Below, one piece after another: positions 17,653-58,254 of a DNA stretch of 64,000 nucleotides (within the stretch, counting starts at the first letter, position 1; the number at the start of each line of letters is the position of its first letter). Under the pieces are notes generated by a model, which did not search any database, had not been told where the DNA came from, and saw only the letters and a program-made list of their open reading frames with translations. The DNA lies in the NCBI RefSeq assembly GCF_000766945.1, contig NZ_ALBT01000033.1, positions 1 through 64,000 on the forward strand, read 5' to 3'. This DNA comes from Cellvibrio mixtus subsp. mixtus J3-8 (lineage in GTDB: Bacteria; Pseudomonadota; Gammaproteobacteria; Pseudomonadales; Cellvibrionaceae). The position numbers and the translations under genes are program-made.

Positions 17653-18501
17653 ATGGAAATACAAAAAAATCCCCTGGTTTCATGCTTGTGCATAACTAAC
17701 AACAGACTAATTTTTTTAAAGCGGGCTATTAATTGTTTCAAAAACCAAACATATGCGAATAGCGAATTATTGGTCGTATGCCTGGATACTGATTTGGCAA
17801 CAGTCAATTACATGCAAGACCATCACCTGAGCGAAGAAAATATTCATTTAATAATCATTTCAAGCGACCTTAACTTAACACTAGGCGACATGCGAAATGA
17901 ATCTATAAAAATCGCTAAAGGTGAGTTTTTTTGTGTATGGGATGATGATGACTACTATCACTGTGAACGACTATCTCGAAGTATGCACGCCATTAAAATT
18001 TCGGGAAAAAATGGTGTAGTGCTAGGAAATGTAATTATTCATCACTTGGCAACTAATTCCTTTTATATGTCTGTTACCAGGCTATGGGAACAAACATTAG
18101 TATTTAATAAACAAAAATTGCTAGATATAAATGCAGGGTATGCCTCCTTAAATAAAGGAGAGGATACCGCACTGGTTAGATCTATCATTAAGGAGCTGTA
18201 CTTTTTAAAAGATCCCACTTTATATATTTATACTTTCCATGCGTCTAACACATGTGATGCCTCTCATCTTCATGCTCATTTAAAAGTGGGAGAACGTTTA
18301 GGTAATATTCAGGAAGGGATCCTCCACACCTTGGTGTCTGATTGCAATGAAAAATTCGCCGCGAACATCCTTGACTCCCATGAATTTATGGAAGGTTTTC
18401 CGTTAGTTACGCAAGCAGATTTGTTACCTTGGGGAGTAAAGCCATTTTGCACCTATCCAAATCCTAGAAGAATTGATACTGAGGTAGGGATATGCCTATA
18501 A
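17653..18501 (+). CDS. GT2-family glycosyltransferase
   Basis: The 282-residue protein has a classic GT2 N-terminus (PLVSCLCITNNRLIFLKRAINCFKNQTY) and a clear metal-binding cluster, W96-D-D-D-D100, in FFCVWDDDDYYHCERL. The C-terminal part carries RRIDTEVGIC and is not assigned. It overlaps the next gene by 10 bases. The neighbour at 18492 aligns with this enzyme around the DxD region but has lost the acidic residues, so the two may work as a pair. Confidence 0.85.
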   Translation: MEIQKNPLVSCLCITNNRLIFLKRAINCFKNQTYANSELLVVCLDTDLATVNYMQDHHLSEENIHLIIISSDLNLTLGDMRNESIKIAKGEFFCVWDDDDYYHCERLSRSMHAIKISGKNGVVLGNVIIHHLATNSFYMSVTRLWEQTLVFNKQKLLDINAGYASLNKGEDTALVRSIIKELYFLKDPTLYIYTFHASNTCDASHLHAHLKVGERLGNIQEGILHTLVSDCNEKFAANILDSHEFMEGFPLVTQADLLPWGVKPFCTYPNPRRIDTEVGICL

Positions 18502-42030: not shown

Positions 42031-42331
42031 GGTCGGTTTTCCGGCGGCTATGTGGATTTAAAAACTATAGCAGCCCGTGGACGACTTTCCGTTTCGCTTT
42101 CCCCCTTTGCATAACGGTAAAGTGAGACAACGCCCACCTTAAGGTGGATACCCAATATGGGACGACGTGGTTGCGTAGCTGCGCGACACTGGTTTAACCG
42201 GGCTTCCACCCAGCGTCTTATCGGTACAGCGCCGCGTTGTCAGGGATCAATAACTATAAAAGTGGCTGTGCACAAAGCACGGGAAATCCGGGTTCGAATA
42301 ATCAATAACAAACCACAAGCAGGTCACTATC
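42031..42331. other. Divergent promoter region, TonB receptor / GH81
   Basis: The spacer contains a perfect 14-bp palindrome CCACCTTAAGGTGG (42134-42147) and, just downstream, CCCAATATGGG (42151-42161) leading into GGGACGAC. No small gene was seen. Promoters for both flanking genes must lie here. Confidence 0.55.
42157..42166 (+). promoter_or_regulatory. GGGACGAC motif, copy 1 (upstream of GH81)
   Basis: ATGGGACGAC is 166 bases before the GH81 ATG and adjoins the palindrome at 42134-42147. It matches the core of copies at 45821, 53184 (complement) and 55101, though with A instead of G at its first position. Confidence 0.5.
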
Positions 42332-45300
42332 ATGAATCGATTCAAGCGAGCTTTGCTCCTGCTGGGCGCATTGGGTTTTGCCCATGCCGGCCAGGCGGCA
42401 ATCATTACTTACGGTGCCGGTAATATCAGCGATACCATCAACACCGCCGGTTGGAAATGTACTGTGGATTACGGCAACTGGATCCATAATGCCGGCGTAG
42501 TAAAGCCGGGTGTTAGCAGTTGTAACCCGATTGGCGCGCCTACCCCGATTTACCCGCAAGAAGTTTCCCCGGCAAGTACCAAGCCAACCATGACCCACCG
42601 CTGGTGGGGTTCGATCCCGTTTGTGGGTGAGATGAAAGTAGGCGTGAGCACCGATGCCGGCTATATCACTCCTGATCCGATTACGGCCCGCATCACCGAG
42701 CGTGGCGTGCGCTTGTTAGGTATTCCGGGCGGGCTGCGCACCGGTACTAACGACACTATTTATGCGATTCCCGACCCGTTCAGCGAAGTGTTTGACGGTA
42801 TTGCCATTGGTAACTCTGCTTATTCAAACCTCGATGCTTTCCTGAAAGATTACAGCGATGGCTCGGTTACCGTGCAGTGGAAAAGTGGTTCCACGGCGGT
42901 AATGGAGGCGACCTTTGTGCATGGTTCGCCCTATGTTTATTTCACCGCATTGCAGGGAAACCTTGTCGTGCGCACCAAGTCAGCAGACGGCGGTGAAAAA
43001 GGAATTTTCTACCAAAACGGCAACAACCTGGGGGTATGGACAGATGTAGCGGGTAACCGCAACGCATTCCTGATCACCGGTCACGATGCCACAACATTTA
43101 GCGGTGTTAACAGTAACAGCATTGGCGTCACCAACGGCACCAAGCGCATGACTGTCACCTGGTTGCCGCAGCTCACCGGTACGCCCTCCAGCGCGATGAT
43201 TACGGCCTTTGCCCAATATGCGACCCAGCAAGTGGACAAGGTAAACATCAATTACAGCGTGGATCGCGCCACCAACAAAGTTACCATCACCCACCAGTAC
43301 CAATTTAATGGTGCAAACGTGACTACCATGGCAGGCTTGTTGCCCCTGCACTGGAAAAATTCCACCCAGGGTGTGACCAGTTACAAGGTGCGTTCCGCGC
43401 GCGGCGTGACCAAATTTGCGACCACCAGCAGTTACAGCTACACCATTCCGTACGTGGGCGTGTTGCCTTACTTCCCGGAGAACATTGGCGATTACAACGC
43501 AACCCAATTGCGCGCATTGGTAACCGAGTTTGTTAACCAGGGCACTGCCCAGTGGAATACCGCAGGCGACACCTACTGGGCCGGTAAAAACTACGGCAAA
43601 GTGGCAGAGCTGGCGGCGATTGCCCGTTCTATCGGCATGACCACGGAAGCTAACCAGATGATCGCCTGGCTGAAAGCCGAATTGCAGGACTGGTTCCGCG
43701 CTAATACCACCGGCGCGTTGGATACCACCAAATACTTCGTGTACGACAACAACTGGAACACCCTGTTGGGATTTGATGAGTCCTTCGGTGCCCAGCAACA
43801 ATTGAACGATCACCACTTCCACTACGGTTACTTTGTGCGTGCCGCAGCGGAAATCTGCCGTGTGGATGCCGCCTGGTGCGGATCAACCCAATATGGCCCC
43901 ATGGTTGAATTGCTAATCCGCGATTACGCTGCCGGCCGCAATGACAGCCAGTTCCCGTACCTGCGTAACTTTGACCCCGCGTATGGTTTCTCCTGGGCAT
44001 CGGGCCACGCCAATTTCGCCTTGGGCAATAACAACGAATCGACATCAGAAGCAGCAAATGCGTACGGCGCGATTGTTCTGTACGGCATGATCACCGGTAA
44101 TAACGACCTGGTGAATCGCGGCATGTACCTGCACGCGTCATCTACAGCGACTTACTGGGAATACTGGAACAACATCGACCGCTTCAAAGGCCTGGGCGGC
44201 GATTATGACAACTTCTCGTCCACCTACACCAAACCAACGACCTCGATTATCTGGGGCAACGGCCATGTATTTTCTACCTGGTTCTCCGGTGCTTATGCAC
44301 ACATCCTCGGTATCCAGGGTTTGCCGCTGAGCCCGCTGGTGTTGCATATCGGTCAACATGCGGATTACCTGAACAACTATGTCGCATTGGGCTTGAGCGA
44401 GTCATCCAACGGTAAACCGTCCGGCTTGCCTAACGGCCAATGGCGCGATGTCTGGTGGAATATCTGGTCGATGACCAACGGCCAGGCGGCGGTGGACGAT
44501 ATGCTGGCGTACGGTTTGAACAACCTGATTCCGGAAGAAGGTGAAACCAAAGCCCACACCTACCATTGGGTCTACACCCTGAAGCAATTGGGTCACCTGG
44601 CAACTGGAACCGGGGCATTAACGGCTAACCATCCTGCGGCAGTGGCATTCAATAAGAATGGTGTGCTGACTTACATCGCTTACAATTTCAGCTGTTCGGC
44701 CATTAATGTGGCTTACTCCGATGGCACCGGCTTCTCCGTTCCTGCAAAAGGCTACGCGTTGAAGCGCACTGGCCAATCGGTAGTATCGAGCGGTGCCGGT
44801 TGCACCGGCACCAGCAGCTCGGTTGCCAGTTCTACCCCGGGCAGTGTGGCCAGTTCTTCCAAATCGTCCGTTGCCAGCTCTGCGGTGGCCAGCTCCGCAG
44901 TGGCAACTCCTTACGGCCACACCGTATTGACCAGCACCAGCGTACGCTTCCATGCGAACAATGCAGCCTGGGCGGATATCCACTACACCATCAACGGCGG
45001 TGCCCAGCAAAATATCCGTATGACCCACAATGCGGATAACTCCAACACTTACACCGTCAGCAACATTCCAGCCGGTGCGACTGTGCGCTATTTCTTCACC
45101 ATCGCCCAGGGCGCCGGTGCCATTGATACGGACTGGGTGCAATTTGGTTGCTGCACGGGCGGGACATCAAGTACCCCGGTGAGCAGTGCGTCAAGCAGTT
45201 CAACGCCTGCTTTCACCCAACTGGTACAAGCGGAAGCGTTTACCGCGATGAGTGGTGTGCAGACCGAAGCCACTACCGATACCAATGGCGGCCAGAACGT

Positions 45301-45592
45301 GGCCTATATTGATGCGGGTGACTGGATGGCTTACGCCAATATCACCATCCCGGCCACGGGCAGTTATCGCATTGAATACCGCGTGGCCAGCCCATCGGGA
45401 TCACTGCTCTCGGCTGACCTGAACGCCGGTACCACCCAATTGGGTAATGTCACTATTCCGGCAACGGGGGGCTGGCAAAACTGGACCACCGTAAGCCACA
45501 CGGTAACCCTTACTGCAGGCACCCACAGCTTCGGTGTGTTCGCCCAGCAGGCTGGCTGGAACTTCAACTGGTTCCGCATTACGCGCCTGTAA
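42332..45592 (+). CDS. Secreted GH81 endo-beta-1,3-glucanase with CBM56-like and CBM6 modules
   Basis: The 1086-residue protein has a signal peptide (1-22), then a GH81 catalytic domain (about 40-790) with FDESFGAQQQLNDHHFHYGY, WASGHANFALG and NNNESTSEAANAYG; Glu569 and Glu573 in the last motif correspond to the conserved acidic pair of the family. Ser-rich linkers (SSSVASSTPGSVASSSKSSV and a second near 950) separate a CBM56-like domain (about 855-940, YGHTVLTSTSVRFHANN ... DWVQFGCC) and a C-terminal CBM6 (about 965-1086, VQAEAFTAMSGVQTE ... GWNFNWFRI). It cuts laminarin-type beta-1,3-glucan outside the cell. Poly-Ser linkers are typical of Cellvibrio and Saccharophagus enzymes. Confidence 0.95.
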   Translation: MNRFKRALLLLGALGFAHAGQAAIITYGAGNISDTINTAGWKCTVDYGNWIHNAGVVKPGVSSCNPIGAPTPIYPQEVSPASTKPTMTHRWWGSIPFVGEMKVGVSTDAGYITPDPITARITERGVRLLGIPGGLRTGTNDTIYAIPDPFSEVFDGIAIGNSAYSNLDAFLKDYSDGSVTVQWKSGSTAVMEATFVHGSPYVYFTALQGNLVVRTKSADGGEKGIFYQNGNNLGVWTDVAGNRNAFLITGHDATTFSGVNSNSIGVTNGTKRMTVTWLPQLTGTPSSAMITAFAQYATQQVDKVNINYSVDRATNKVTITHQYQFNGANVTTMAGLLPLHWKNSTQGVTSYKVRSARGVTKFATTSSYSYTIPYVGVLPYFPENIGDYNATQLRALVTEFVNQGTAQWNTAGDTYWAGKNYGKVAELAAIARSIGMTTEANQMIAWLKAELQDWFRANTTGALDTTKYFVYDNNWNTLLGFDESFGAQQQLNDHHFHYGYFVRAAAEICRVDAAWCGSTQYGPMVELLIRDYAAGRNDSQFPYLRNFDPAYGFSWASGHANFALGNNNESTSEAANAYGAIVLYGMITGNNDLVNRGMYLHASSTATYWEYWNNIDRFKGLGGDYDNFSSTYTKPTTSIIWGNGHVFSTWFSGAYAHILGIQGLPLSPLVLHIGQHADYLNNYVALGLSESSNGKPSGLPNGQWRDVWWNIWSMTNGQAAVDDMLAYGLNNLIPEEGETKAHTYHWVYTLKQLGHLATGTGALTANHPAAVAFNKNGVLTYIAYNFSCSAINVAYSDGTGFSVPAKGYALKRTGQSVVSSGAGCTGTSSSVASSTPGSVASSSKSSVASSAVASSAVATPYGHTVLTSTSVRFHANNAAWADIHYTINGGAQQNIRMTHNADNSNTYTVSNIPAGATVRYFFTIAQGAGAIDTDWVQFGCCTGGTSSTPVSSASSSSTPAFTQLVQAEAFTAMSGVQTEATTDTNGGQNVAYIDAGDWMAYANITIPATGSYRIEYRVASPSGSLLSADLNAGTTQLGNVTIPATGGWQNWTTVSHTVTLTAGTHSFGVFAQQAGWNFNWFRITRL

Positions 45593-45636
45593 GTTCGTTT
45601 TCCCACAATAAGTGGGATGCCTGGTTCCAGGTAGAT

Positions 45637-45674
45637 AGCCCCCGGTAGAACTGGTTCTGCCGGGGGCTTTTTTT
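45637..45674 (+). terminator. Intrinsic terminator of GH81 gene
   Basis: A 15-base near-perfect stem (AGCCCCCGGTAGAAC with GTTCTGCCGGGGGCT, one G-T pair) is followed by seven T, 45 bases after the stop. Confidence 0.93.
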
Positions 45675-45820
45675 CAGTACCACTTTTGTCGGTGAGTAGA
45701 AACGACACAGGCGAAATTGTCCGGATGAACATATCTAACTTATTGATATTAATAGTTTTTAAGGGTTCCCACACAGGGTGGTAAAAAGTGATATGCCTCA
45801 GGTTCGAGTAAATTTTCAAG

Positions 45821-45832
45821 GTGGGACGACAC
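45821..45832 (+). promoter_or_regulatory. GTGGGACGACAC motif, copy 2 (upstream of TonB receptor)
   Basis: AAG-GTGGGACGACAC lies 145 bases before the receptor start at 45966. It is identical over 12 bases to the copy at 55101. Confidence 0.6.
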
Positions 45833-45965
45833 TCTGAACGCCACCTGTGATTATCAAATCGCTAGAAAAGCGGTCATGGCCCGGTACGAGGGTGACCTAC
45901 GAGAGAAACCGCTCAATAAAGCGGGCCAGAATAAATTCCATACCAATAAATAAATGGAGAATTCC

Positions 45966-48899
45966 ATGAGTAAGACACTAACCAACAAGCAATCAACCAG
46001 CTTCAGAAGAAAACTCATTGCCACCGCAGTGACTTCTGCCATGCTCGGTGCCAGCAGTTTTGCGCTGGCGCAGGATGATGTGGAAGAAGTTGTTATCACC
46101 GGTATTAAAGCGAGCTTGGCCCGTGCAATGGATATCAAGCGCGATGCCAAGGGTGTTGTTGATGCCATTTCTGCAGAAGACATCGGCAAGTTCCCGGATA
46201 CTAACCTGGCTGAATCGTTACAGCGTATTTCGGGTGTATCGATTGATCGCTCCAACAACGAAGGTAGCAAAATCACGGTTCGTGGTTTTGGGCCAGAATT
46301 TAACCTTGTGACCTTGAATGGTCGTCAAATGCCTACCAACGGAAGTTCACGCTCATTTGAATTCTCCGATTTGGCGGCAGAAAGTGTTAGCGGCGTAGAC
46401 GTATACAAAACATTCAGCGCCGACAAGGTGACTGGTGGTATTGGCTCGTTGGTCAATATTAATACTGCTCGCCCGCTCGACAAACCTGGCATCAATGGAT
46501 CGATTGGTGTTAAAGGGATGATGGACACCACTAATGAAATTGGTGATGACGTAACACCGGAAGTGTCGGGTATTTTCAGTGGCACATTCTTCGATAACAC
46601 CTTTGGTGTGGCAATTTCCGGCTCATATCAAGAGCGTGATAGCCGTTCAGTCAATGCGGATATTGCGAACTGGAGAAACAATCTTAACTACAACCCAAAT
46701 GCCAATGTGGTAGATAACCGTACCGACAAAAGCGGTCCGACTTTTTATCCACGTAACTTCGGTTATGGTATTGATGATATTTCGCGCGAGAGAACGAATG
46801 GTCAAGTAGTGTTGCAGTACGCACCTACAGATACCATCAAGGCAACCCTGGATTACACCTACTCCAAAGTTGATTATCGTGCGCTGAATACCGGTGTAGG
46901 TATTTGGTATAGCGATACTGGTGCTACCTTGACCGAAGGTATTATCGATGAAAACGGTACCTTCGTTCGCGTTACTGAATCCGGTGAAGACTACGCGTCA
47001 AATATTCGTTTGAATACTTCCCAGACTGAAAATAAATCGCTTGGCTTTAATCTTGAGTGGCAAGCTACCGACAGTTTGAAAGTGAACTTCGACGTGCATG
47101 ATTCAGAAGGTGAAAATGGTGGTGTGGGCAGAGGGAATGATGTGTTCCTGATTCTCGGTGCCAAGCAAATCGATAAAAAAACCTACGATGCCACCTCAGG
47201 AAAAGACATTCCAGACATGATTATCGATTTCCTCGATAACGGTGTCGGAATTGTTAATGGCCAACCAACCGGCGCATCCTATGATTCACTGTTCGCGCAG
47301 GCGGGCAAAAATATCAATAAATCCGATGTTACCCAGGTTCAAATTGATGCAGTTTGGGAAACCGGTGATGAAGCTGGTATAACCTCCATCGATTTTGGTG
47401 TGGCTAATACTAAAATTACGAACCGCTGGCGTGCATTTAACACTGGCCAATTACCGCTGGGTTGGTATAGCGGCAATAACGCTCTGTGGGCGACGACTGT
47501 CGATTTTGAAGAGAAGCAACTCACTGGATTAATGCCGTCCTTCTCTGGTGGCGCATCCTCAATTCCTATCTACCACACATGGGATCTGGAAAAGGGTATT
47601 GCGATTGCTGAAGCGCAATGGGCAAACCATGCTGCATCGCCATTACCTTCCTGGGGTACAGCACCGGAAGGTTCAGTAATGAGCCCAAATATGGCCGGCG
47701 CCCCTAATAGTGATCACACCGTTACTGAAGAAACTGCTGCAGCTTATGTGCAGTTTAATATGCAAGGTGAACTCGCTGATATGCCGTTGGATGTTTCAAC
47801 GGGTGTTCGCTATGAGTCGACCGATATTGAATCCAACAGTTATCAGCAAGATCCCACAACCATCATTTGGCAAAATCCTACCGAGTGGGGCATCACTCGC
47901 GCAGCAAATAGTCGTTACACCGCAGAATTTGGTGATTACGATACCTGGTTGCCAAGCCTGGATGCTGCGTTGAATATTACTGATGATGTTGTTGGCCGTT
48001 TCAGTTACAGCCGCTCACTAACACGTCCGCGTTTGGGCGCATTGATTGGTAATACCTCGATTACTGATCGTCCGAAACCAGGCGAAAGAAATGGTAGCAA
48101 GGGTGTACCTGATCTCCTTCCGTATACCGCGGACAACCTGGATATTTCTGCTGAGTGGTATTACGCCGAAGCCAGTTATGTTTCTGTTGGCCTTTTCCAT
48201 AAGCAAGTAGTTAACTTTATTGTGGACGAGTCTGTTCCCGAGCAAGTGTTTGGCCTGCGCGATCCATTACAAGGACCTCGTGCCCAGGCAGCAAGAGCCG
48301 AGCTGGAAGCGGAAGGTTTACCACTCACCGATACCAATGTGTTTAATCGCATTAATGAGATGGCGGGCACTTCAGGTCCAATTGCACAAAGCTCTGCTGA
48401 TCCATTGGCTACCTTCCAAATTTCTACACCTAAAAATATTGAAGACGCGAAGCTGCAAGGTGCAGAGTTTGCAGTTCAACATACTTTCGGTGAATCAGGA
48501 TTTGGTGTAGTTGCGAACGCAACTTTGGTAAGTGGTGATTTGGAAGTTGATAACTCTGCTACTGACTTCCAGTTCGCATTGCCAGGTATGAGTGACTCTG
48601 CCAACTTGATCGGTTTCTACGATAAAAATGGCTTGCAAGCACGTATCGCTTACAACTGGCGTGACACATTCCTGAATGGTATTGGTGAAAACAATACTCC
48701 TCTTTACACGGAGGAATATGGTCAAATTGATATCTCCGTCAGCTACGACTTGCCATTCGTGGAAGGTATGACTGTCTTTGTTGAAGGAATCAACGTTACT
48801 GACGAGTCACAACGTGTTTATGCTCGTTACAAGAACCAGTTTAAATCAGCGTATCAATACGGCGCGCGTTATAACCTGGGTGTTCGTTACAGCTTCTAA
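45966..48899 (+). CDS. TonB-dependent receptor, carbohydrate type
   Basis: The frame opens at 45954, but the ATG at 45966 has GGAG 7 bases upstream, so that is the start (977 residues). A signal peptide ends near ASSFALAQ; the TonB box region EEVVITGIKASLARAMDIKR and plug motifs DIGKFPDTNLAESLQRISGVSIDR and ITVRGFGPEFNLVTLNGRQMP follow. The barrel ends in YNLGVRYSF. This IKASLARA-type N-terminus marks the receptors that accompany glycoside hydrolase loci in Cellvibrio-like and Caulobacter-like bacteria. It probably imports beta-1,3-glucan oligomers produced by GH81. SapC, cupin and halogenase genes follow on the same strand, a recurring set. Confidence 0.93.
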   Translation: MSKTLTNKQSTSFRRKLIATAVTSAMLGASSFALAQDDVEEVVITGIKASLARAMDIKRDAKGVVDAISAEDIGKFPDTNLAESLQRISGVSIDRSNNEGSKITVRGFGPEFNLVTLNGRQMPTNGSSRSFEFSDLAAESVSGVDVYKTFSADKVTGGIGSLVNINTARPLDKPGINGSIGVKGMMDTTNEIGDDVTPEVSGIFSGTFFDNTFGVAISGSYQERDSRSVNADIANWRNNLNYNPNANVVDNRTDKSGPTFYPRNFGYGIDDISRERTNGQVVLQYAPTDTIKATLDYTYSKVDYRALNTGVGIWYSDTGATLTEGIIDENGTFVRVTESGEDYASNIRLNTSQTENKSLGFNLEWQATDSLKVNFDVHDSEGENGGVGRGNDVFLILGAKQIDKKTYDATSGKDIPDMIIDFLDNGVGIVNGQPTGASYDSLFAQAGKNINKSDVTQVQIDAVWETGDEAGITSIDFGVANTKITNRWRAFNTGQLPLGWYSGNNALWATTVDFEEKQLTGLMPSFSGGASSIPIYHTWDLEKGIAIAEAQWANHAASPLPSWGTAPEGSVMSPNMAGAPNSDHTVTEETAAAYVQFNMQGELADMPLDVSTGVRYESTDIESNSYQQDPTTIIWQNPTEWGITRAANSRYTAEFGDYDTWLPSLDAALNITDDVVGRFSYSRSLTRPRLGALIGNTSITDRPKPGERNGSKGVPDLLPYTADNLDISAEWYYAEASYVSVGLFHKQVVNFIVDESVPEQVFGLRDPLQGPRAQAARAELEAEGLPLTDTNVFNRINEMAGTSGPIAQSSADPLATFQISTPKNIEDAKLQGAEFAVQHTFGESGFGVVANATLVSGDLEVDNSATDFQFALPGMSDSANLIGFYDKNGLQARIAYNWRDTFLNGIGENNTPLYTEEYGQIDISVSYDLPFVEGMTVFVEGINVTDESQRVYARYKNQFKSAYQYGARYNLGVRYSF

Positions 48900-49056
48900 T
48901 CACCTTCGGCGATTATGAGACAAGGAAAAGCCGCTTTAAACAGCGGCTTTTTCTTTGCTGGCAGCGGCTAAGCTTTTTATGTGTGTCTCTATAGTAGTGT
49001 TAAAAAAGTGTACTGTCCAAATAGCGTAAAAAAATGATCGTTACGGGGAAATAAGC

Positions 49057-49776
49057 ATGTCTAACAATGCATTACTGAATAATGTAACGCACAAAGATCT
49101 TAAAATTATTACTGCACGTGGCGCTGCCTACGGTGATGATTTGTGGCATGCGACCATCGTGCCGCGTGAGTTTCGTCAGGTTGCGGCTACCTATCCTATT
49201 GTGTTTCGCAAAATAGCAGCGACTAATCAATTTGAAGCTGTTGCCCTGTTTGGTTTTGCAGCAAAAGAAAATTTATTTCTTGATGCAAATAGTTGGCAAG
49301 CTGACTATATACCTCTTTCCGTAGAACGAATTCCTTTTATGATTGGTCAGGCCACAGATCGTATAACGGGTGAGCAACAACCGGTTATTCATATTGACAT
49401 GGAGCATCCGCGCATCAGCTTTTCTGAAGGCACCAGCGTTTTTTTAGAGCATGGTGGTAACACTCCATATCTTGAGCGCATCAATAGCATATTAGCTGAG
49501 TTGATGGGTGGGTTAAATTCAGGTAAGCGTTTTGTTGACATTTTATTGGCTGAAGATTTACTAGAGCCTTTTACATTAAAATTTGCTGTTGATAGCCAGC
49601 ACTCGATTGAGCTAAATGGTTTCTACACAATCAACGAAGATACGTTGCGTTCGTTAAATGGCGAGCAATTATCACGCCTGCACAACCAGAATTTTCTGGA
49701 ATTGATTTACATGGTTATTGCATCGCTATCCAATATCGGAAAATTAATTAGAAAAAAGCAGAATAGTCTCCGTTAG
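49057..49776 (+). CDS. SapC-family protein
   Basis: The 239-residue protein fits the SapC family: PREFRQVAATYPIVFRK, ALFGFAAKENLFL, YIPLSVERIPFMIG, then FVDILLAEDLLEPFTLKF and the C-terminal NEDTLRSLNGEQLSRLH. Despite the name (from an S-layer-linked locus), the biochemical role is not established. No signal peptide is seen. It lies between a TonB receptor and a JmjC-like cupin, a gene set commonly found beside sugar receptors. A weak GGGGAAATA lies before the ATG. Confidence 0.85.
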   Translation: MSNNALLNNVTHKDLKIITARGAAYGDDLWHATIVPREFRQVAATYPIVFRKIAATNQFEAVALFGFAAKENLFLDANSWQADYIPLSVERIPFMIGQATDRITGEQQPVIHIDMEHPRISFSEGTSVFLEHGGNTPYLERINSILAELMGGLNSGKRFVDILLAEDLLEPFTLKFAVDSQHSIELNGFYTINEDTLRSLNGEQLSRLHNQNFLELIYMVIASLSNIGKLIRKKQNSLR

Positions 49777-49792
49777 CGGGAGTGTAAAAATT

Positions 49793-50827
49793 ATGATTGA
49801 TCAGCGGCCCATAAATTCGGTAGCAATTTCCCCGGTTGAAGTTGTTGAAGGTTGTACGCCCGATGCAATTCCGGATTTTGTATTTACCTGTAATAAACCG
49901 CTGCTATTAAAAGGCCTTGTAAAAAAATGGCCGGTCGTTGCCGCCGCAGCGCAATCACCAGAAGCTGTATCTCAATATATCTGCGGTTTTTATAATAATG
50001 AATTGGTGAATGCTGCTATCGGCAACAGCGACAATGATGGAGCCATTTTTTATAACGAAGACCTTAGCGGCTTTACTTATCAACGCCAGCGCACGCGCCT
50101 GGATAATGTGCTGGAACAAATACGCTTATTGGAACGTGCCGGGTCAGCGCAAGCCTATTATGTAGATTCAGCGCCAGTAGAATATTGCCTGCCTGGTTTC
50201 CGGACACACAACGACTTGCATCTGGGTGGATTTAAACCTCGTGTCAGTATCTGGATGGGCAATAAAACCCGCGTATCTGCCCATTATGATATTCCCGATA
50301 ATATCGCGTGCGTTGTTGCTGGCAAACGGCGTTTTACCGTTTTCCCTCCAGAGCAATTGTCCAATTTGTATGTCGGCCCACTTGATTTCAATCCGGCTGG
50401 GCCCGCTATCAGCATGGTGGATTTGAATCAACCGGATTATCAAAAATTTCCGCGTTTTCGCGATGCGCTTGAGCATGCGCAGGTGGCAGAACTGGAGCCC
50501 GGTGATGCAATCTATATTCCCGGCATGTGGTGGCATCATGTTGCAGGATTGGAAATTTTTAATGTATTGATTAATTACTGGTGGAGTGCGTCACCAGAAT
50601 ATTTTGGTTCGCCACTGGATGCCTTTAATCACGCACTGATGAGCATAAAGTCTTTACCGGTAGATCAGCGCAAGAGTTGGCAGAATTTATTTGAATATTA
50701 TATTTTTTCATCAACACCGGAGCAGTTTTCACATATTCCTCCTGAACGAAAAGGTATGTTGGGCGAACTTGATGAAGCAATGGTTCGCCGCATGCGATCC
50801 ATGCTGTTGAACCGATTAAATCGGTGA
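49793..50827 (+). CDS. Cupin-8/JmjC-like Fe(II)/2-oxoglutarate oxygenase family protein
   Basis: The 344-residue protein has the cupin-8 layout: PLLLKGLVKKWPVV at the N-terminus, RVSIWMGNKTRVSAHYDIPDNIACVVAGKRRFTVFPPEQ (with H-x-D iron ligands HYD), and ELEPGDAIYIPGMWWHHVAGLE (distal His). Family relatives hydroxylate protein side chains. It is 16 bases after sapC and 22 before the halogenase gene, so all three are probably co-transcribed. Its substrate here is unknown; a role on the neighbouring receptor or another envelope protein would be speculation. Confidence 0.87.
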   Translation: MIDQRPINSVAISPVEVVEGCTPDAIPDFVFTCNKPLLLKGLVKKWPVVAAAAQSPEAVSQYICGFYNNELVNAAIGNSDNDGAIFYNEDLSGFTYQRQRTRLDNVLEQIRLLERAGSAQAYYVDSAPVEYCLPGFRTHNDLHLGGFKPRVSIWMGNKTRVSAHYDIPDNIACVVAGKRRFTVFPPEQLSNLYVGPLDFNPAGPAISMVDLNQPDYQKFPRFRDALEHAQVAELEPGDAIYIPGMWWHHVAGLEIFNVLINYWWSASPEYFGSPLDAFNHALMSIKSLPVDQRKSWQNLFEYYIFSSTPEQFSHIPPERKGMLGELDEAMVRRMRSMLLNRLNR

Positions 50828-50849
50828 TTTTCTGAGTTAAAAATAATAG

Positions 50850-52370
50850 GTGAAAAAATTGCAGGACAATAACATAAGAAAAATTGCGATTATTGGTGGC
50901 GGCACATCTGGCTGGATGAGTGCAGCAGCGCTGGCGCAAGTACTGCGCGGAAAGTACAGTGAAATAACCCTTATTGAATCCGACGATATTGGCACTGTCG
51001 GCGTGGGCGAAGCAACGGTCCCGCCAATGCATATATTTAATCGCATGCTTGATTTAAATGAAGCCGATTTTATGCGTAAAACCCAGGCAACTTTCAAACT
51101 GGGAATTCAATTTGTAAATTGGGCGCGCTTGGGGGATTCCTATCTACATGGTTTCGGCGATATTGGTAAAGATATCAATGCAATACGTTTTTACCATTAT
51201 TGGTTGAAATTATCGCAGCAGGGATTAGTTGAAGATCTCGATAACTATAAAATTGCCAGTGTTGCAGCATTGCAAGGCAAGTTTATGCTGCCTATCGATC
51301 AGCCTGATTCCCCACTATCAGAAATTGCTTACGCGTTTCATTTTGACGCGGGTTTGTACGCACGCTATTTACGGGAATACGCTGAAGCCCGTGGTGTAAA
51401 ACGCATTGAAGGAAAGGTAATCAACACCCGGCTTTTTGATAACGGTTTTATTGAGGCTGTGACGCTGGAGTCCGGCGAGCAAATTACTGCAGATTTGTTT
51501 ATTGATTGCTCGGGTTTTCGCGGGCTATTGATAGAGGAGGCATTAAAGACCGGTTACGAGGACTGGAGCCATTGGTTGCCTTGTGATCGCGCATGGGCTG
51601 TTGCGACCGAAAATTGCGGTGAGCCAAAACCCTATACAAAAGCAATCGCGCATTCCGCCGGTTGGCAATGGTGTATTCCGTTGCAGCACCGAACGGGTAA
51701 CGGGCATGTTTTTTCCAGTAAATTTATGAGTGAAGATGAAGCGCGCTCGATTCTCATGAATAATCTTGATGGGCAAGCGAAGGGCGAGCCGAGGTTACTG
51801 AAATTCATCACCGGTAAACGCAAAAAAGTTTGGCAAAAAAACTGTGTTGCCATAGGTTTATCGAGCGGATTTATGGAGCCATTGGAATCTACCAGCATTT
51901 ATCTTGTGCAGTCAGCACTGGCGCGACTGGTGACTTTATTTCCTAATAAAAATTTTGATCAGCACACCATTGATGAGTTTAATCGCCAGTCGGATTTTGA
52001 AGTGGAAAGAATTCGCGACTTTCTCATACTTCATTATCATGCTACTAGCCGTAACGATTCGGTGTTCTGGGATTATTGCCGCACAATGGCGATTCCGCCA
52101 ACGTTAACTGAGAAAATTGAATTGTTTAAAAGTAGTGGCCGCGTTTTTCGCACAGCCGCAGAAATGTTCAGTGATCAAAGCTGGATCGCGGTTATGAATG
52201 GCCAGGGTATTTTCCCTGCAACTTATCATCCCTTGGTGGATCGCTTATCCAATGATGATGTCGTAAGGCGAGCGGAAAACATAAAAAAAGTTATTGAAAA
52301 ATCTGTGGCACTCATGCCATCTCATGCTCAATTTATTAATCACTACTGCAAGGCAGGCATACCCGATTAA
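50850..52370 (+). CDS. Tryptophan-halogenase family flavoprotein 1
   Basis: The 506-residue protein has a GTG start. It has the FAD motif IIGGGTSGWMSAAALA, GVGEATVPPMHIFNRML, the Lys in TFKLGIQFVNW at the position of the catalytic Lys of flavin-dependent halogenases, and the diagnostic W-x-W-x-I-P as GWQWCIPLQHRTGNGHVFSS. These features support a flavin-dependent halogenase fold with both key motifs intact. It is the last gene of the receptor-SapC-cupin-halogenase string. Whether it halogenates anything in a polysaccharide locus is unclear; members of this clade have no established substrate as far as I recall. Confidence 0.88.
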   Translation: MKKLQDNNIRKIAIIGGGTSGWMSAAALAQVLRGKYSEITLIESDDIGTVGVGEATVPPMHIFNRMLDLNEADFMRKTQATFKLGIQFVNWARLGDSYLHGFGDIGKDINAIRFYHYWLKLSQQGLVEDLDNYKIASVAALQGKFMLPIDQPDSPLSEIAYAFHFDAGLYARYLREYAEARGVKRIEGKVINTRLFDNGFIEAVTLESGEQITADLFIDCSGFRGLLIEEALKTGYEDWSHWLPCDRAWAVATENCGEPKPYTKAIAHSAGWQWCIPLQHRTGNGHVFSSKFMSEDEARSILMNNLDGQAKGEPRLLKFITGKRKKVWQKNCVAIGLSSGFMEPLESTSIYLVQSALARLVTLFPNKNFDQHTIDEFNRQSDFEVERIRDFLILHYHATSRNDSVFWDYCRTMAIPPTLTEKIELFKSSGRVFRTAAEMFSDQSWIAVMNGQGIFPATYHPLVDRLSNDDVVRRAENIKKVIEKSVALMPSHAQFINHYCKAGIPD

Positions 52371-52382
52371 TCGTTTTTCAAT

Positions 52383-52413
52383 AAAAAAGCCGGATTTTTA
52401 TCCGGCTTTTTTT
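52383..52413 (+). terminator. Intrinsic terminator after halogenase 1
   Basis: AGCCGGAT (52388-52395) pairs with ATCCGGCT (52400-52407), with flanking A- and T-runs extending the stem and giving a 3' T tract. It ends the receptor-SapC-cupin-halogenase unit. Confidence 0.92.
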
Positions 52414-52472
52414 ATGCTTCAAATAATTCCACTGCCCATCGAAATAAAAATATCAGGGACAAATATCATTAA

Positions 52473-52946
52473 TTAAAGGCAAGTATATTTCAGCGGTGGG
52501 TAAGAATACGGGCTTTGCGGTTGTACAGAGTAAGGGCAGCCCTGGCCACAGAATTGGGTCGGGGTGATATTCGGATTTAAATAACCGTTAGGGCCGGTTT
52601 GTACGGTAATAGTTGAACCGGGATAACACGCCTGGGCTTTTGCAACTGGTGCGGTAACATATTTTAAAATCACGGCGCTGTCGCAAGAGCCACTTTGCAC
52701 ATACCCGGGGGCAACCCAGGTAACGCTGCAACTGGGGGCGTAGCGATTATGTTTTTGTTCGCGTGTTGCGATGGAGGTGCCGTTCAAATCGCAAGATGAA
52801 TTTACAATAGCACCGCTTGCGCTGGATACCACACTGGTGGTCACCCAGGTGCAACCGGAAGGTGTGGTCGATTGTGCGTAGCTGCTGGCAGCCATAGTAC
52901 TGATTAATGAAAAACCTATACCCAACATTACTTTTGATAACTTCAT
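52473..52946 (-). CDS. Secreted Cys-rich protein of unknown function
   Basis: The 157-residue protein begins with a clear signal peptide (MKLSKVMLGIGFSLISTMAA, cleavage after SSYAQ or nearby). The mature part has eight cysteines, enough for four disulfides, and is rich in Ser, Thr, Pro and Tyr, ending in PPLKYTCL. No family is recognised. It is the only minus-strand gene inside this stretch of the glucan locus, and a GTGGGACGA motif on its own strand lies about 240 bases upstream, as for the other locus genes. A small carbohydrate-binding or envelope protein is possible. Confidence 0.75.
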   Translation of the reverse strand: MKLSKVMLGIGFSLISTMAASSYAQSTTPSGCTWVTTSVVSSASGAIVNSSCDLNGTSIATREQKHNRYAPSCSVTWVAPGYVQSGSCDSAVILKYVTAPVAKAQACYPGSTITVQTGPNGYLNPNITPTQFCGQGCPYSVQPQSPYSYPPLKYTCL

Positions 52947-53365
52947 ATAAATTCCTATTCATCGTTAGGGTGTTTGTCTGCGCGTGATATCCATTGTCCC
53001 GTGAATACTCGCAGCGATGTGGTGACATCGCACATTGTTATCAGCCTCCTGGCTGATTTTTTGAATCACCGGCTGTTGCCGATTGAACTCAAACGGGTTG
53101 GCTCGCCATTTATTTTAATAATGCTTTACAACCTGACTCTGCCTTGAAGCTGCGCTGATTTTCATCGGTAATTAAAAAAATATCGTCCCACCTTTTGCTT
53201 ATGGAAAAACTGGGCTGCAATACCCCGGTGAGGATGATGATTGATGCGCAATAACGATTTTTTTGCTGCTGGATTAGCGGATAAGTGCGCTGCCACAACA
53301 GCTGGTGCATAATGCGCCCACTACACAGCAGAGCGGCCGGTTAAAAGGCCAACAGGTCAAACAAC
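52947..53365. other. Divergent intergenic region with a regulatory motif copy
   Basis: The spacer between the Cys-rich protein gene and halogenase 2 carries the complement of AAGGTGGGACG at 53184-53194. A 66-codon frame on the minus strand (53110-53310) has no homology or ribosome site and is not called. Nothing else was recognised. Confidence 0.5.
53184..53194 (-). promoter_or_regulatory. AAGGTGGGACG motif, copy 3 (minus strand)
   Basis: On the minus strand the sequence reads AAAAGGTGGGACGATA, matching copies at 45821 and 55101. Its orientation agrees with the gene for the Cys-rich secreted protein (start 52946, 238 bases away). Confidence 0.55.
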
Positions 53366-54925
53366 ATGAGTAATCCCATTAAAAAAATAATGATTGTCGG
53401 CGGCGGTTCAGCGGGTTGGTTAACCGCTGGGGTAATTGCGGCGGAACATCTGGTTGATAAAGAACGTGGTATTGAATTGGTATTAATTGAATCACCGGAT
53501 GTACCCATCATCGGTGTCGGTGAGGGTACCTGGCCCTCAATGCGCACTACCTTGAAAAAAATCGGCGTATCCGAAACCGATTTTTTTCGCGAGTGTGATG
53601 CGAGCTTCAAACAAGGTTCCAAATTTATCGATTGGCTCAAACCCGGCGGTGGCAGTTATTACCACCCGTTCAACCTTCCCGACGGCGGTAATGATTTTAA
53701 TCTGGCCGAACACTGGTTGCCCTTTCGCGATACAGTCACATTTGCCGATGCTGTTTGTCCTATCAGTCACATTTCTGATCGCAACCTTGCCCCCAAATTA
53801 ATTACCACACCGGAATTTAGCGGCAACAGCAATTATGGTTATCACCTGGACGCGGGAAAATTTTCCGTGTTCCTGAAAAAACATTGCATTGAAAAACTGG
53901 GTGTTACTTATATCCAGGATCACGTAATCAAAATCAATTCCGCCGAAAATGGTGATATAGCGTCGCTGAGCACTAAAATGAATGGTGATATCAGCGCGGA
54001 TTTGTTTATTGATTGCACCGGATTTGCATCATTACTACTTGGTGAGCATTATCGGATTCCGTTCAAGGAGGAGCGCCGCGTATTGTTTAACGATAGCGCC
54101 CTTGCTGTGCAAGTTCCCTATCCGGACGCCGATGCACCCATCGCCTCTTGCACCTTGTCGACCGCGCAGGATTGCGGCTGGATCTGGGATATAGGCCTGC
54201 CCACACGCCGCGGTGTGGGTCACGTATTTTCCAGTGCGCATACCAGTGACGAACAAGTGCTGAAAAATTTACAGGCTTATCTCCAACCCGCAATTGGCAA
54301 AGCAGCGGCTGAAAAAATTATGCCGCGCAAGCTCAGCTTTAATCCCGGTTATCGCCAGGAGTTATGGCATAAAAATTGTGTCGGTGTGGGGATTGCTGCC
54401 GGTTTTATCGAACCCCTGGAAGCGACGGCGTTGGTGTTGATTGAATTATCTGCACAAATGATTGCCGAGCAATTGCCGGCAACGCGCGGCGTGATGGATA
54501 CCGTTGCCAGCCGTTTTAACCGGAAACTTTACGATCATTGGCAGCGCATCATTGAATTCCTGAAATTGCATTATGTGATCAGCGAGCGTCGCGATACCGA
54601 CTACTGGCGCGATCACCTGGATGAGTCCACCCAGCCGGACGGTTTGCGTGAATTGCTGGAACTCTGGCGCTATCACGTGCCCTGGAGAAACGATATCCGC
54701 AGCGATGAAATGTTTCCCTGGGCGAGCTACCAATATGTGCTTTACGGCATGGGTTATCACACGATGCTGCCGTCAGTCGCAAAGCGAAATGCGGCCATGG
54801 ATATAGAAAAAGCCGGGCGTATGTTCAATGAAAATATAAAAAAATCACAAACCCTGGTTAGCAAGTTACCCACCAACCGGGTTTTATTAAGCAAGCTGCG
54901 CGAATACGGCTTCCAAAAAATATAA
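53366..54925 (+). CDS. Tryptophan-halogenase family flavoprotein 2
   Basis: The 519-residue protein has VGGGSAGWLTAGVIA (FAD site), GVGEGTWPSMRTTLKKIG and the active-site Lys region SFKQGSKFIDW. The W-x-W-x-I-P motif is changed to WIWDIGLP: Trp, Trp and Ile are kept but the Pro position is Gly. It is clearly related to, but diverged from, the enzyme at 50850. A weak ribosome site (ACAGGT) precedes the ATG. Its role in the glucan locus is unknown. Loss of strict halogenase function, leaving a flavin monooxygenase or other oxidase, is possible. Confidence 0.87.
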   Translation: MSNPIKKIMIVGGGSAGWLTAGVIAAEHLVDKERGIELVLIESPDVPIIGVGEGTWPSMRTTLKKIGVSETDFFRECDASFKQGSKFIDWLKPGGGSYYHPFNLPDGGNDFNLAEHWLPFRDTVTFADAVCPISHISDRNLAPKLITTPEFSGNSNYGYHLDAGKFSVFLKKHCIEKLGVTYIQDHVIKINSAENGDIASLSTKMNGDISADLFIDCTGFASLLLGEHYRIPFKEERRVLFNDSALAVQVPYPDADAPIASCTLSTAQDCGWIWDIGLPTRRGVGHVFSSAHTSDEQVLKNLQAYLQPAIGKAAAEKIMPRKLSFNPGYRQELWHKNCVGVGIAAGFIEPLEATALVLIELSAQMIAEQLPATRGVMDTVASRFNRKLYDHWQRIIEFLKLHYVISERRDTDYWRDHLDESTQPDGLRELLELWRYHVPWRNDIRSDEMFPWASYQYVLYGMGYHTMLPSVAKRNAAMDIEKAGRMFNENIKKSQTLVSKLPTNRVLLSKLREYGFQKI

Positions 54926-54951
54926 GCGCTATTGCCGTTCGTTTTATCGAC

Positions 54952-54985
54952 AAAAGCCTGTTATCCGTACGATAACGGGCTTTTT
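54952..54985 (+). terminator. Intrinsic terminator after halogenase 2
   Basis: AAAAGCCTGTTATC (54952-54965) pairs with GATAACGGGCTTTT (54971-54984) with one G-T pair and a 5-base loop, followed by T. Confidence 0.9.
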
Positions 54986-55100
54986 ACTTTGTTATTTCCC
55001 GCCCTTCGTTCGATTAAGCCTCCGTTGGTGTTTATCAGAACCTGTGCGAATAAATTGCACACACAAAAGTGAATAGCCCCATGTTCCACTCGCGATAAAA

Positions 55101-55112
55101 GTGGGACGACAC
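55101..55112 (+). promoter_or_regulatory. GTGGGACGACAC motif, copy 4 (upstream of GH3)
   Basis: AAA-GTGGGACGACAC lies 430 bases before the GH3 ATG. It is identical over 12 bases to the copy at 45821, which lies before a receptor of the same locus. Confidence 0.6.
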
Positions 55113-55530
55113 CCTTTTGCGTCCGATGCCACTATGAACTACGTCAGCCGGATTGCGTGCCCGTGGTTGAGCCACAAGCCGGTGTGCCAGTGATTGGTTT
55201 TTTTCACTGGAACAGAACCCTTGGGTGATGTCAGGTCCCCGGGGGTGTTAGCAAGCGTGGTGCAGGTACACCTATGCCAACCCTATCTACACTTGTTAGC
55301 TCTCCTTGCTTTGCTCTGGCGTTCTACCCTCGAAAAGAACGCCGGGGCGTTTTTCCGATTCGGTTACTCATGTTCACCAAACAGGAATCAGCTAGAAAAA
55401 TAACAATATTTATCTCAAGCATGCTTCTGGCAATTAACCATCGGCAAGAAAAATTAACAATTAAATAAAATCCGGTAAGTAGCAAAACAACCTGAATTCC
55501 CAATGATTAATTTTTATAGCGAGGTAATTT

Positions 55531-58086
55531 ATGCCCACTAATGATAAGGCTGCGGTGTATAGGCTGGCAGTACTGACCCTGTGCAGCCTGGCAGTTGTCA
55601 TTGCCTTGGCTGGCTGTGGCAAAAAAAATACAGAATCCGGCGCGACTGAAACACTCTCCACCGCTACTGAATCGCCCTGGCCGAAATTGGAAAGCGCGGT
55701 TAAAAAAGATCCCGCCGTTGAAGCAAAAATTACTGAACTCTTGGGAAAATTATCCGTCGAGCAAAAAGTCGGGCAATTGATCCAGCCTGAACTGCGCCAT
55801 GTGACCCCGGCCGATGTGATCGAATATGGTGTGGGGTCAGTATTGAATGGCGGCGGCTCTTTTCCCGCTGAAAATAAACACGCAAAAGTTGAAGACTGGC
55901 TGGCATTGGCCGATGGTTTTTACAACGCATCCATGAATACCGATAACGGTCGAGTGGCTATCCCGATTTTCTGGGGAACCGATGCGGTTCACGGCCACAA
56001 CAATATTATCGGCGCAACCCTGTTCCCGCATAACATCGGCTTGGGCGCAACGCGCAATCCGGAATTGATTAAGCAAATTGGTGCGGCAACGGCGGCTGAA
56101 ATTGCAGTGACGGGTATCGATTGGAGTTTTGCACCGACACTTGCTGTGGTGCGCGATGATCGCTGGGGGCGCACTTACGAATCCTATTCAGAAGATCCGG
56201 CAGTAGTGAAATCCTATGGCGGCAAAATGGTGGAAGGTTTGCAGGGTGTTGCCGGTAAGGATTTCCTGAGCGAGCAACACGTGATCGCTACCGCGAAACA
56301 TTTCCTTGCCGATGGCGGAACCCAGGGCGGGCAAGATCGCGGCGATGCAACTATCGATGAAGCCGAATTGGTAAAAATCCACAACGCCGGTTATGAAACC
56401 GCGCTCGCCGCCGGTACACAAACGGTGATGGCATCCTTCAGCAGCTGGCAAGGCGTGAAGATGCACGGCAATAAATATTTGCTCACCGACCAATTAAAAA
56501 ACCAGATGGGTTTTGATGGTTTGGTGGTGGGCGACTGGAATGGCCACGCTTTTGTTTCCGGTTGTACACCAGTCAGTTGCGCGCAAGCAATTAATGCCGG
56601 CCTGGATATTTTTATGGCCCCGGAAGGCAATTGGAAAGAGTTGTACCACAACACTGTTGCACAAGTAAAAAGCGACGAGATTTCACAAGCGCGCCTGGAC
56701 GATGCAGTTGCGCGCATTTTGCGCGTAAAAATTCGCGCCGGATTATTTGAAAAAGGTGCGCCTTCAATGCGTGAGCTTGCAGGCAAGCGCGAAATAATCG
56801 GTTCAGCTGAACATCGTGCGGTCGCCCGTCAAGCCGTGCGTGAATCGATTGTGTTGTTAAAAAATAATTCGCAAACGCTGCCAGTAAAAGCCAACAGCAA
56901 AATTCTGGTGGCGGGTGATGGTGCGGATAATATTGGCAAACAATCCGGCGGCTGGAGCATCACCTGGCAAGGTACCGGTAACACCAATGCAGATTTCCCC
57001 GGCGGTTCATCTATTTATCAAGGTATTGCTGGTGCCGCAAAAGCGGCAGGCGGTGCTGCTGAATTGAGTGTGGATGGAAATTACAAAACGAAACCTGATG
57101 TTGCTTTTGTTGTGTTTGGTGAAGATCCTTACGCCGAAATGCAAGGTGATATCGGCAGTTTGATTTATAAAAATGAAACCAATCTTGCACTGCTGAAAAA
57201 ATTAAAAGCCGATGGCATTAAAGTCGTTTCATTATTTATTACTGGTCGCCCGCTATGGGCCAATAATTTTATCAACGCTTCCGACGCGTTTGCGGTTATC
57301 TGGTTGCCGGGTTCGGAAGGTGCCGGTGTTGCGGATGTTGTCCTGACAAAAGCAGATGGTTCGGTAAATTACGATGTTAAAGGTAAATTGCCATTTTCCT
57401 GGCCATCATCGCCTGCGCAATCCCCGCTTAATGTTGGCGATGCGGATTACAAACCACAATTCGCATTTGATTTTGGTTTGACCTACGCCGACAAAACCGA
57501 AACACCAGTACTGGATGAGACGGCGGCGCAACTTGCTGCGGCGCAAGTGCCGGATACCGTTCCGGTATTTAATCAGCGGGTAATGAATCCGTGGACACTG
57601 GTGTTGCTGGATCATGTGAACAACATGGCTCCGGTTACAACCAGCAGTGGTGAATTAGGTGCAGTAAAAGTCTCGTCGCAAGATAAACATGTACAAGAGG
57701 ACACTCGCCGTTTGCAATTTAATGGCAGCGCAAAAGCAACCGCAGTATTTGGCTCTACCTTGCGCTCGGATTTCAGCAGTTACGCTGAAAAAGGTGCGCT
57801 GGTATTCGATGTAAAAGTAAATGCCAAACCGGATGCTGACGTGACTGTAGGTATGTATTGCGGCAGTGATTGCCAAGGCGAAATTTCCGTTGCAGAGCAA
57901 TTAAATGCCGCGCCGGTAGGCGAGTGGAGCAGCGTCAGTATTGCTCTGGACTGTTTCGCGAAAAAGCGCGTCAAACTGGATATGGTGCTCGCGCCCTTTA
58001 TGATCAGTTCTGCGGGCAACCTGGATATTTCGCTCTACAATGTACGCATCGAAAAAAATGCCACTGCACCTGCTTGCGGCGAATAA
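55531..58086 (+). CDS. GH3 beta-glucosidase/exo-glucanase lipoprotein
   Basis: The 851-residue protein carries a lipoprotein signal with lipobox LAGC (Cys about 29). The GH3 N-terminal barrel shows VGQLIQPELRHVTP, FWGTDAVHGHNN, DDRWGRTYESYSEDP, KHFLADGG and the nucleophile in LVVGDWNGH (Asp335). The alpha/beta second domain follows (RESIVLLKNNSQTLPVK). A C-terminal ExoP-like module (about 715-850, GALVFDVKVNAKPDADVTV ... LDISLYNVRIEK) is related to the two modules of the GH16 protein downstream. Close family members hydrolyse beta-1,3/1,4-gluco-oligosaccharides. Membrane anchoring fits trimming of oligomers from the GH81 enzyme. Confidence 0.94.
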   Translation: MPTNDKAAVYRLAVLTLCSLAVVIALAGCGKKNTESGATETLSTATESPWPKLESAVKKDPAVEAKITELLGKLSVEQKVGQLIQPELRHVTPADVIEYGVGSVLNGGGSFPAENKHAKVEDWLALADGFYNASMNTDNGRVAIPIFWGTDAVHGHNNIIGATLFPHNIGLGATRNPELIKQIGAATAAEIAVTGIDWSFAPTLAVVRDDRWGRTYESYSEDPAVVKSYGGKMVEGLQGVAGKDFLSEQHVIATAKHFLADGGTQGGQDRGDATIDEAELVKIHNAGYETALAAGTQTVMASFSSWQGVKMHGNKYLLTDQLKNQMGFDGLVVGDWNGHAFVSGCTPVSCAQAINAGLDIFMAPEGNWKELYHNTVAQVKSDEISQARLDDAVARILRVKIRAGLFEKGAPSMRELAGKREIIGSAEHRAVARQAVRESIVLLKNNSQTLPVKANSKILVAGDGADNIGKQSGGWSITWQGTGNTNADFPGGSSIYQGIAGAAKAAGGAAELSVDGNYKTKPDVAFVVFGEDPYAEMQGDIGSLIYKNETNLALLKKLKADGIKVVSLFITGRPLWANNFINASDAFAVIWLPGSEGAGVADVVLTKADGSVNYDVKGKLPFSWPSSPAQSPLNVGDADYKPQFAFDFGLTYADKTETPVLDETAAQLAAAQVPDTVPVFNQRVMNPWTLVLLDHVNNMAPVTTSSGELGAVKVSSQDKHVQEDTRRLQFNGSAKATAVFGSTLRSDFSSYAEKGALVFDVKVNAKPDADVTVGMYCGSDCQGEISVAEQLNAAPVGEWSSVSIALDCFAKKRVKLDMVLAPFMISSAGNLDISLYNVRIEKNATAPACGE

Positions 58087-58092
58087 AAAACC

Positions 58093-58126
58093 AATGCAGT
58101 GAAGTAAAAAGCTTCACTGCATTTTC
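58093..58126 (+). terminator. Hairpin after GH3 gene
   Basis: AATGCAGTGAAG (58093-58104) pairs perfectly with CTTCACTGCATT (58112-58123). Only a short T stretch follows, so termination may be partial and the GH16 gene downstream may be read through. Confidence 0.7.
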
Positions 58127-58254
58127 ACTGGCGGATAACCGCAACGTTTGCCGAGCAATTTTATCCGATGTTTATTTTTTAAATTACTACAGCTCTTTTT
58201 CAAATACTAAATAGCAATAACACCCTGGGTTTCACAATAACAATAGAGGTAATT

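Follow-up and report, generated by a model that had tools for sequence, protein, structure and literature searches.

A conserved element precedes beta-1,3-glucan utilization genes of Cellvibrio and is probably the operator of a membrane AraC-type regulator

RhaS, MelR, and AraC are class II activators of the AraC/XylS family, the promoters of which contain several half-sites, with the promoter-proximal one positioned over the -35 hexamer. In Saccharophagus degradans, 16 of the 31 AraC regulators are membrane-bound and several of them are encoded beside polysaccharide genes; sensing of extracellular polysaccharides by these proteins was proposed in 2008 (PMC2386152). A stretch of 64,000 nucleotides from Cellvibrio mixtus subsp. 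mixtus J3-8 (contig NZ_ALBT01000033.1, positions 1 to 64,000), referred to here as the window, contains a beta-1,3-glucan locus in which an element of ~50 base pairs (bp) is located upstream of genes for a GH81 enzyme, a TonB-dependent receptor, a Cys-rich secreted protein, and a GH3 enzyme. The element is conserved and almost certainly serves as the operator of a beta-1,3-glucan regulon. Its probable binder is a membrane AraC-type protein, no other regulator having been recognised in the locus.

The AraC-type protein of the window resembles RhaS, MelR, and AraC in its AraC-type DNA-binding domain and in the presence of several half-sites per promoter, one of which is predicted to overlap the -35 hexamer. 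In contrast, it has an N-terminal membrane domain instead of their soluble sugar-binding domain, and its putative half-sites have a sequence of their own and an alternating layout (< > < >). With the membrane-bound proteins of S. degradans, it shares the AraC-type helix-turn-helix (HTH), six to seven predicted membrane segments, and a position beside polysaccharide-degradation genes; however, the consulted part of the S. degradans report describes genomic proximity only, without a DNA motif or target set, whereas an operator, its targets, and its distribution are presented here (PMC2386152). The xylan regulators of Cellvibrio japonicus (Emami et al. 2009, cited in PMC10766802) belong to the same genus and are reported to be AraC-type activators of polysaccharide-degradation genes that respond to oligosaccharides. 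They are hybrid two-component proteins, whereas only HTH domains, and no histidine kinase or receiver domain, were found by Pfam in the one-component protein of the window. No published motif or target site for a membrane AraC protein was found in the open literature, most subscription journals being outside the search.

A sequence-only model of the element (R1), derived from 14 sites, was searched in 21 Cellvibrio genomes, and matches with E-values of at most 1e-3 were considered strong. All 34 strong matches are positioned upstream of a gene of the glucan locus, in the right orientation; 13 of these sites, together with one site of another genus, formed the training set of the model. The genes following the strong sites encode GH3 enzymes (16), TonB receptors (14), a GH81, a GH16, and two accessory proteins, which are a protein of ~230 amino acids (aa) and a member of the ADP-ribosylglycohydrolase family. 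Strong sites precede glucan-locus genes even where the TonB receptors share only 37–43% identity. A non-circular model (R3), constructed from 25 sites that all come from other genera, ranks the receptor and GH3 promoters of the window first and second in the genome, followed by the promoter of a di-haem oxidoreductase gene (E-value 0.007) and, in fourth place, the GH81 promoter (0.058 in the genome, 7e-4 in the window). Many genome matches unrelated to glucan genes, which the earlier note on this DNA would have taken as a refutation, are not what was found: the strong matches in the genome are those of this locus. Among 245 genomes of the order searched at E-values of at most 0.01, matches are present in six genomes of this family, and the two marginal matches in other families are about what is expected by chance.

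The GH81 and Cys-rich protein copies have weak scores when considered alone, and their position and orientation are kept in several other Cellvibrio genomes. Weaker matches before GH81 orthologues are retained in position, second GH81 genes also carry the element, and outside the main locus it precedes additional genes for GH81 enzymes and one for a GH16. The weak site before the Cys-rich protein gene has same-strand counterparts before the homologous unit in five other loci (L066, L072, L078, L079, and L081). Some weak matches of the R1 model are unrelated: families L097, L098, and L103 are located inside a 364-aa open reading frame, L087 and L105 inside open reading frames, and the match at positions 18249–18291 of the window inside the open reading frame 17653–18501.

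The element was recognised through the core word GGGACGA, of which the earlier note had described four intergenic copies in the glucan locus. These copies are present at positions 42159, 45823, and 55103 of the forward strand and 53183 of the reverse strand, each in the orientation of its downstream gene, as the note had stated. The coordinates that it gave are correct within two bases, although they mark a start one to two bases upstream of the core, at the form TGGGACGA/GTGGGACGA. The reported identity over 12 bases also holds: GTGGGACGACAC occurs at 45821–45832 and 55101–55112, and an exact search of the 5,183,709-base genome returned no third copy. The same 12-mer is found in many related genomes, many of its copies being located before equivalent genes. 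The short core was rejected as a unit, because six copies in the window against 3.96 expected is at chance level. The 15-mer AAAGTGGGACGACAC has four matches in the genome with up to two mismatches, the best two of them in the glucan locus, whereas its reversed version, used as a control, has 14.

The 15-mer is the promoter-proximal end of the ~50-bp element, which adds AAAGTGA and CCCAYGTT upstream. The consensus from 51 sites of several genera is AAAGTGA-N4..6-CCCAYGTT-N11..12-TCAAAGTGGGACGAC, and aligned copies of the 12-mer show the same succession of AAAGTGA, the inverted half-site (CC)CCAYGTT, 11–12 variable bases, and AAAGTGGGACGAC. The full operator consists of repeated half-sites of the AA[AG]GTGGGAC type in alternating orientation (< > < >). 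Relative to the T of TGGGAC, the forward half-sites in 78 aligned sites are at -4 and about -37, and the reverse ones at -26 and about -56; the outermost copy is degenerate in some promoters. The TTCCA/TTCGA motif, described in the earlier note as an element about 10–13 bases ahead of the core in three copies, was rejected as a separate element: its start falls within the final bases of the inverted half-site (CAGGTT|CGA in the receptor promoter, CATGTT|CCA in the GH3 promoter), of which it is a continuation, and is not conserved in relatives. The last forward half-site appears to overlap a weak predicted -35 hexamer (ACGACR), 17–18 bp from a -10-like hexamer, because in the 78 pooled sites the best -10 match has an offset of +27 relative to the T of TGGGAC, with a 17-bp spacer from the ACGACR extension. 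The hexamers are weak, and the -10 is poor for the GH81 and Cys-rich protein genes.

The candidate regulator has the C-terminal double HTH of the AraC/XylS type, with HTH_18 at residues 296–377 (65.7 bits, E-value 4.8e-18, cut-off 33.6), and is encoded near polysaccharide-degradation genes. Six strong hydropathy maxima are located within residues 11–249, and residues 1–250 are predicted to form about six to seven membrane segments. The region of the second recognition helix, NSKSAFHRFF, is invariant in the aligned orthologues. The co-occurrence of the motif (E-value of at most 0.01) and the AraC orthologue (at most 1e-110) was determined over 144 genomes of the family. Sixty of them have the motif and 64 have AraC; both are present in 58, the motif only in two, AraC only in six, and neither in 78 (Fisher p ~1e-30). 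Outside Cellvibrio, the corresponding numbers are 39, 1, 5, and 78 (Fisher p 2e-25). The six genomes with AraC only carry weaker copies of the motif, which in five of the six are next to AraC or not far from it. The motif is positioned in the intergenic region beside AraC, 136–165 bp from the start codon, in 11 genomes, all of one other genus. Genome G170, which has the motif without a strong AraC match, encodes an AraC protein of 45% identity beside GH81, with the motif between them. Three genomes with GH81 that lack AraC were rejected as controls: GH81 of G160 and G051 is part of longer proteins and that of G050 is at a contig end, so that these genomes are not comparable.

The concentration of matches before functionally coherent genes, and their presence together with the regulator in genomes other than G010, are properties of a specific-regulon operator. 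Chance recurrence of a 7-mer picked by eye has a negligible probability: the count of GGGACGA in the window (six against four expected) is what chance would give, whereas the full element has E-values of 1e-14 to 1e-6, the other-genera model included, and targets that agree in 34 of 34 cases, by which this explanation is refuted for the element as a whole. A transcribed RNA element, or a site for sigma-54 or CRP, would fit the constant position of the element on the sense strand upstream of a gene. However, the region has no Rfam match, the half-sites are upstream of the predicted -10, and the consensus contains neither the sigma-54 pattern TGGCAC-N5-TTGCT nor the CRP pattern TGTGA-N6-TCACA; these origins are extremely improbable. 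It is also very improbable that the promoters are only similar by inheritance, owing to duplication of upstream regions, and have no specific regulator. The receptor sites of close relatives are alike over most of ~120 bp, as common descent gives, but what is kept between promoter classes and between genera is limited to the half-sites, the spacing of these, and the -35-overlapping end, the spacers being different, and matches precede unlinked genes of the same function but different sequence.

Alternatively, the element could be a genuine glucan-regulon operator to which a protein encoded elsewhere binds, such as a paralogous membrane AraC or a two-component response regulator, while the AraC gene of the locus travels along and has another function. 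This is unlikely, but several observations weigh in its favor or against binding by the AraC protein of the locus. Cellvibrio genomes contain genes for several membrane AraC paralogues. Genome G010 is the chief exception to the co-occurrence: none of its AraC proteins passes the orthologue cut-off, and nevertheless one of its GH81 genes is preceded by a site that looks intact, and a di-haem/CBM56 gene by the 12-mer; the single motif match of G010 at an E-value of at most 0.01 is a di-haem oxidoreductase promoter. Because the G010 assembly is 97% complete, recent loss of the gene, an assembly gap, and another binder are all possible. The related element before di-haem oxidoreductase genes, that of G010 among them, may be read by a paralogous regulator. 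Furthermore, AraC is not beside the sites in G005 and G003, and no site was found upstream of the AraC gene within the window. The co-occurrence figures are inflated by common descent, because the motif, AraC, and the enzymes are inherited as one locus; they are strong circumstantial evidence. On the other hand, the strong motif tracks this orthologue group, whereas the paralogues occur in Cellvibrio genomes regardless. The membrane AraC protein of the locus is the best candidate because of the co-occurrence, the weak sites in AraC-only genomes, mostly near AraC, and the sites adjoining this gene in 11 genomes, and it is probably the binder. The suggestion of the earlier note that the motif is a site for the locus regulator, perhaps this protein, is thus supported by the targets and the co-occurrence, from which binding may be predicted.

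Table 1. Features of the beta-1,3-glucan locus in the window. Half-site orientation is indicated by > and <.
Feature	Position	Strand	Basis
GH81 operator, weaker variant	42119–42190	+	R1 6.1 bits, alone not significant
GH81 operator part AAAGTGAGAC	42119–42128	+	
GH81 operator part GCCCACCTT	42132–42140	+	
GH81 operator part AATATGGGAC	42154–42163	+	
GH81 predicted -35, ACGACG	42162–42167	+	
GH81 doubtful -10, GACACT	42185–42190	+	
GH81 with CBM56 and CBM6, endo-beta-1,3-glucanase	42332–45592	+	Pfam
TonB-receptor operon operator/promoter	45766–45854	+	R1 E 2.2e-14 (genome); R3 E 1.8e-7
Receptor site 0, TTCCCAC (<)	45766–45772	+	
Receptor site 1, AAAGTGATAT (>)	45785–45794	+	
Receptor site 2, GCCTCAGGTT (<)	45795–45804	+	
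Receptor site 3, AAGGTGGGAC (>)	45818–45827	+	
Receptor predicted -35, ACGACA	45826–45831	+	Offsets from 78 aligned sites
Receptor predicted -10, GATTAT	45849–45854	+	Offsets from 78 aligned sites
Predicted target operon: TonB-dependent receptor, SapC, cupin-like, tryptophan-halogenase-like	45954–52370	+	Pfam
Cys-rich secreted protein, predicted target	52473–52946	-	Orthologues in L066, L067, L078, L081
Cys-rich protein gene operator, inverted half-site AGCCCAGTTT and AAGGTGGGACGA	53183–53216	-	R2 E 0.007, R3 E 0.02 (within window)
GH3 operator/promoter	55066–55135	+	R1 E 1.6e-11; R3 E 1.2e-6 (second in genome)
GH3 half-site AAAGTGAATA (>)	55066–55075	+	
GH3 half-site GCCCCATGTT (<)	55076–55085	+	
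GH3 half-site AAAGTGGGAC (>)	55098–55107	+	
GH3 predicted -35, ACGACA	55106–55111	+	
GH3 predicted -10, CACTAT	55130–55135	+	18-bp spacer
GH3 leader-RNA hairpin, apical GUGCCCGUGGUUGAGCC	55146–55184	+	Downstream of predicted GH3 promoter; 12 orthologous leaders
Predicted target GH3–GH16	55531–60399	+	Pfam
GH3	55531–58086	+	Pfam
GH16	58255–60399	+	Pfam
Predicted regulator, one-component AraC-type protein	60570–61730	-	Pfam HTH_18, hydropathy, motif co-occurrence

The GH81 operator contains the perfect palindrome CCACCTTAAGGTGG (positions 42134–42147), which the inverted half-site forms together with another half-site in direct orientation. Receptor leaders have TGTGATTAT...GGCTAGAAAAGCGGT in common beyond the operator (about 45833–45880 of the forward strand in the window), possibly representing the -10 region plus a start-proximal element. 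The Cys-rich protein matches no family of Pfam or NCBIfam. The ~230-aa family, which has a hydrophobic N-terminus and lacks a Pfam match, is encoded together with this protein or nearby, and before its gene in other loci (L077:12645-13340, L081:14358-15050, L066, L067, L072, and L079); the family was not found in the window. The GH16 gene is presumably co-transcribed with GH3. The hairpin in the GH3 leader has a nearly invariant 17-nucleotide apex, GTGCCCGTGGTTGAGCC, in 12 Cellvibrio leaders. Its stem shows strong covariation: 92% of cells are paired and 29 are compensatory, compared with 9.5 in shuffles (0/500). The hairpin has no Rfam match, and only some members fold strongly as single sequences. 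It is possible that it provides a second layer of GH3 control.

The element before di-haem oxidoreductase genes, CTTCTCACTTTTT...AAGTGAGATGCCCCAGCTT...AAAAGTGAGAAG (G000:C2:300470-300519 on the reverse strand, L086, L088, and L099), has the layout of the glucan operator and a different last half-site. These promoters were left out of the regulon, because the layout is common to both but AraC dependence is not. In loci L100, L101, and L102, GTGGGACGACAC is positioned upstream of genes that join di-haem oxidoreductase, F5/8 type C, and CBM56 modules, and in L101 and L102 there is additionally an inverted half-site, CACTTT, with the usual spacing. The di-haem/CBM56 genes possibly constitute an oxidative arm of glucan use.

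The analysis establishes computationally the conserved element together with its placement, the genes that it targets, and its co-occurrence with AraC. As for the mechanism, we infer the binding of AraC, activation as its effect, and the identity of the inducer. The AraC protein would use its membrane part to sense oligosaccharides derived from glucan; it would bind the operators and, like a class II activator, recruit RNA polymerase, and so turn on GH81, the TonB-receptor operon, GH3–GH16, and the Cys-rich secreted protein together. This account, in which glucan-regulon operators are read by the membrane AraC as an activator, is considered likely as a whole. When C. japonicus grows on fungal necromass, glu81A, glu16A, glu16B, and glu16F are among the most up-regulated genes, and TonB transporters are also up-regulated (PMC11497827). 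One glucan regulon would predict such co-induction, although those glu genes may not be the ones of this locus.

More tentatively, the element might be the first operator to be defined for the polytopic membrane AraC family, with a membrane-embedded dimer or tetramer reading four alternating half-sites, the two pairs of which are ~32 bp, or three helical turns, apart, and sensing glucan at the membrane. If so, glucan promoters at scattered positions could fire only when brought to the membrane. Membrane AraC proteins are numerous in the polysaccharide degraders of this group. The combination of a motif of fixed spacing, a short list of targets, and a single candidate regulator makes the sensing proposal of 2008 testable, and the element offers a route to predicting glucan regulons, unlinked genes included, across Cellvibrionaceae.

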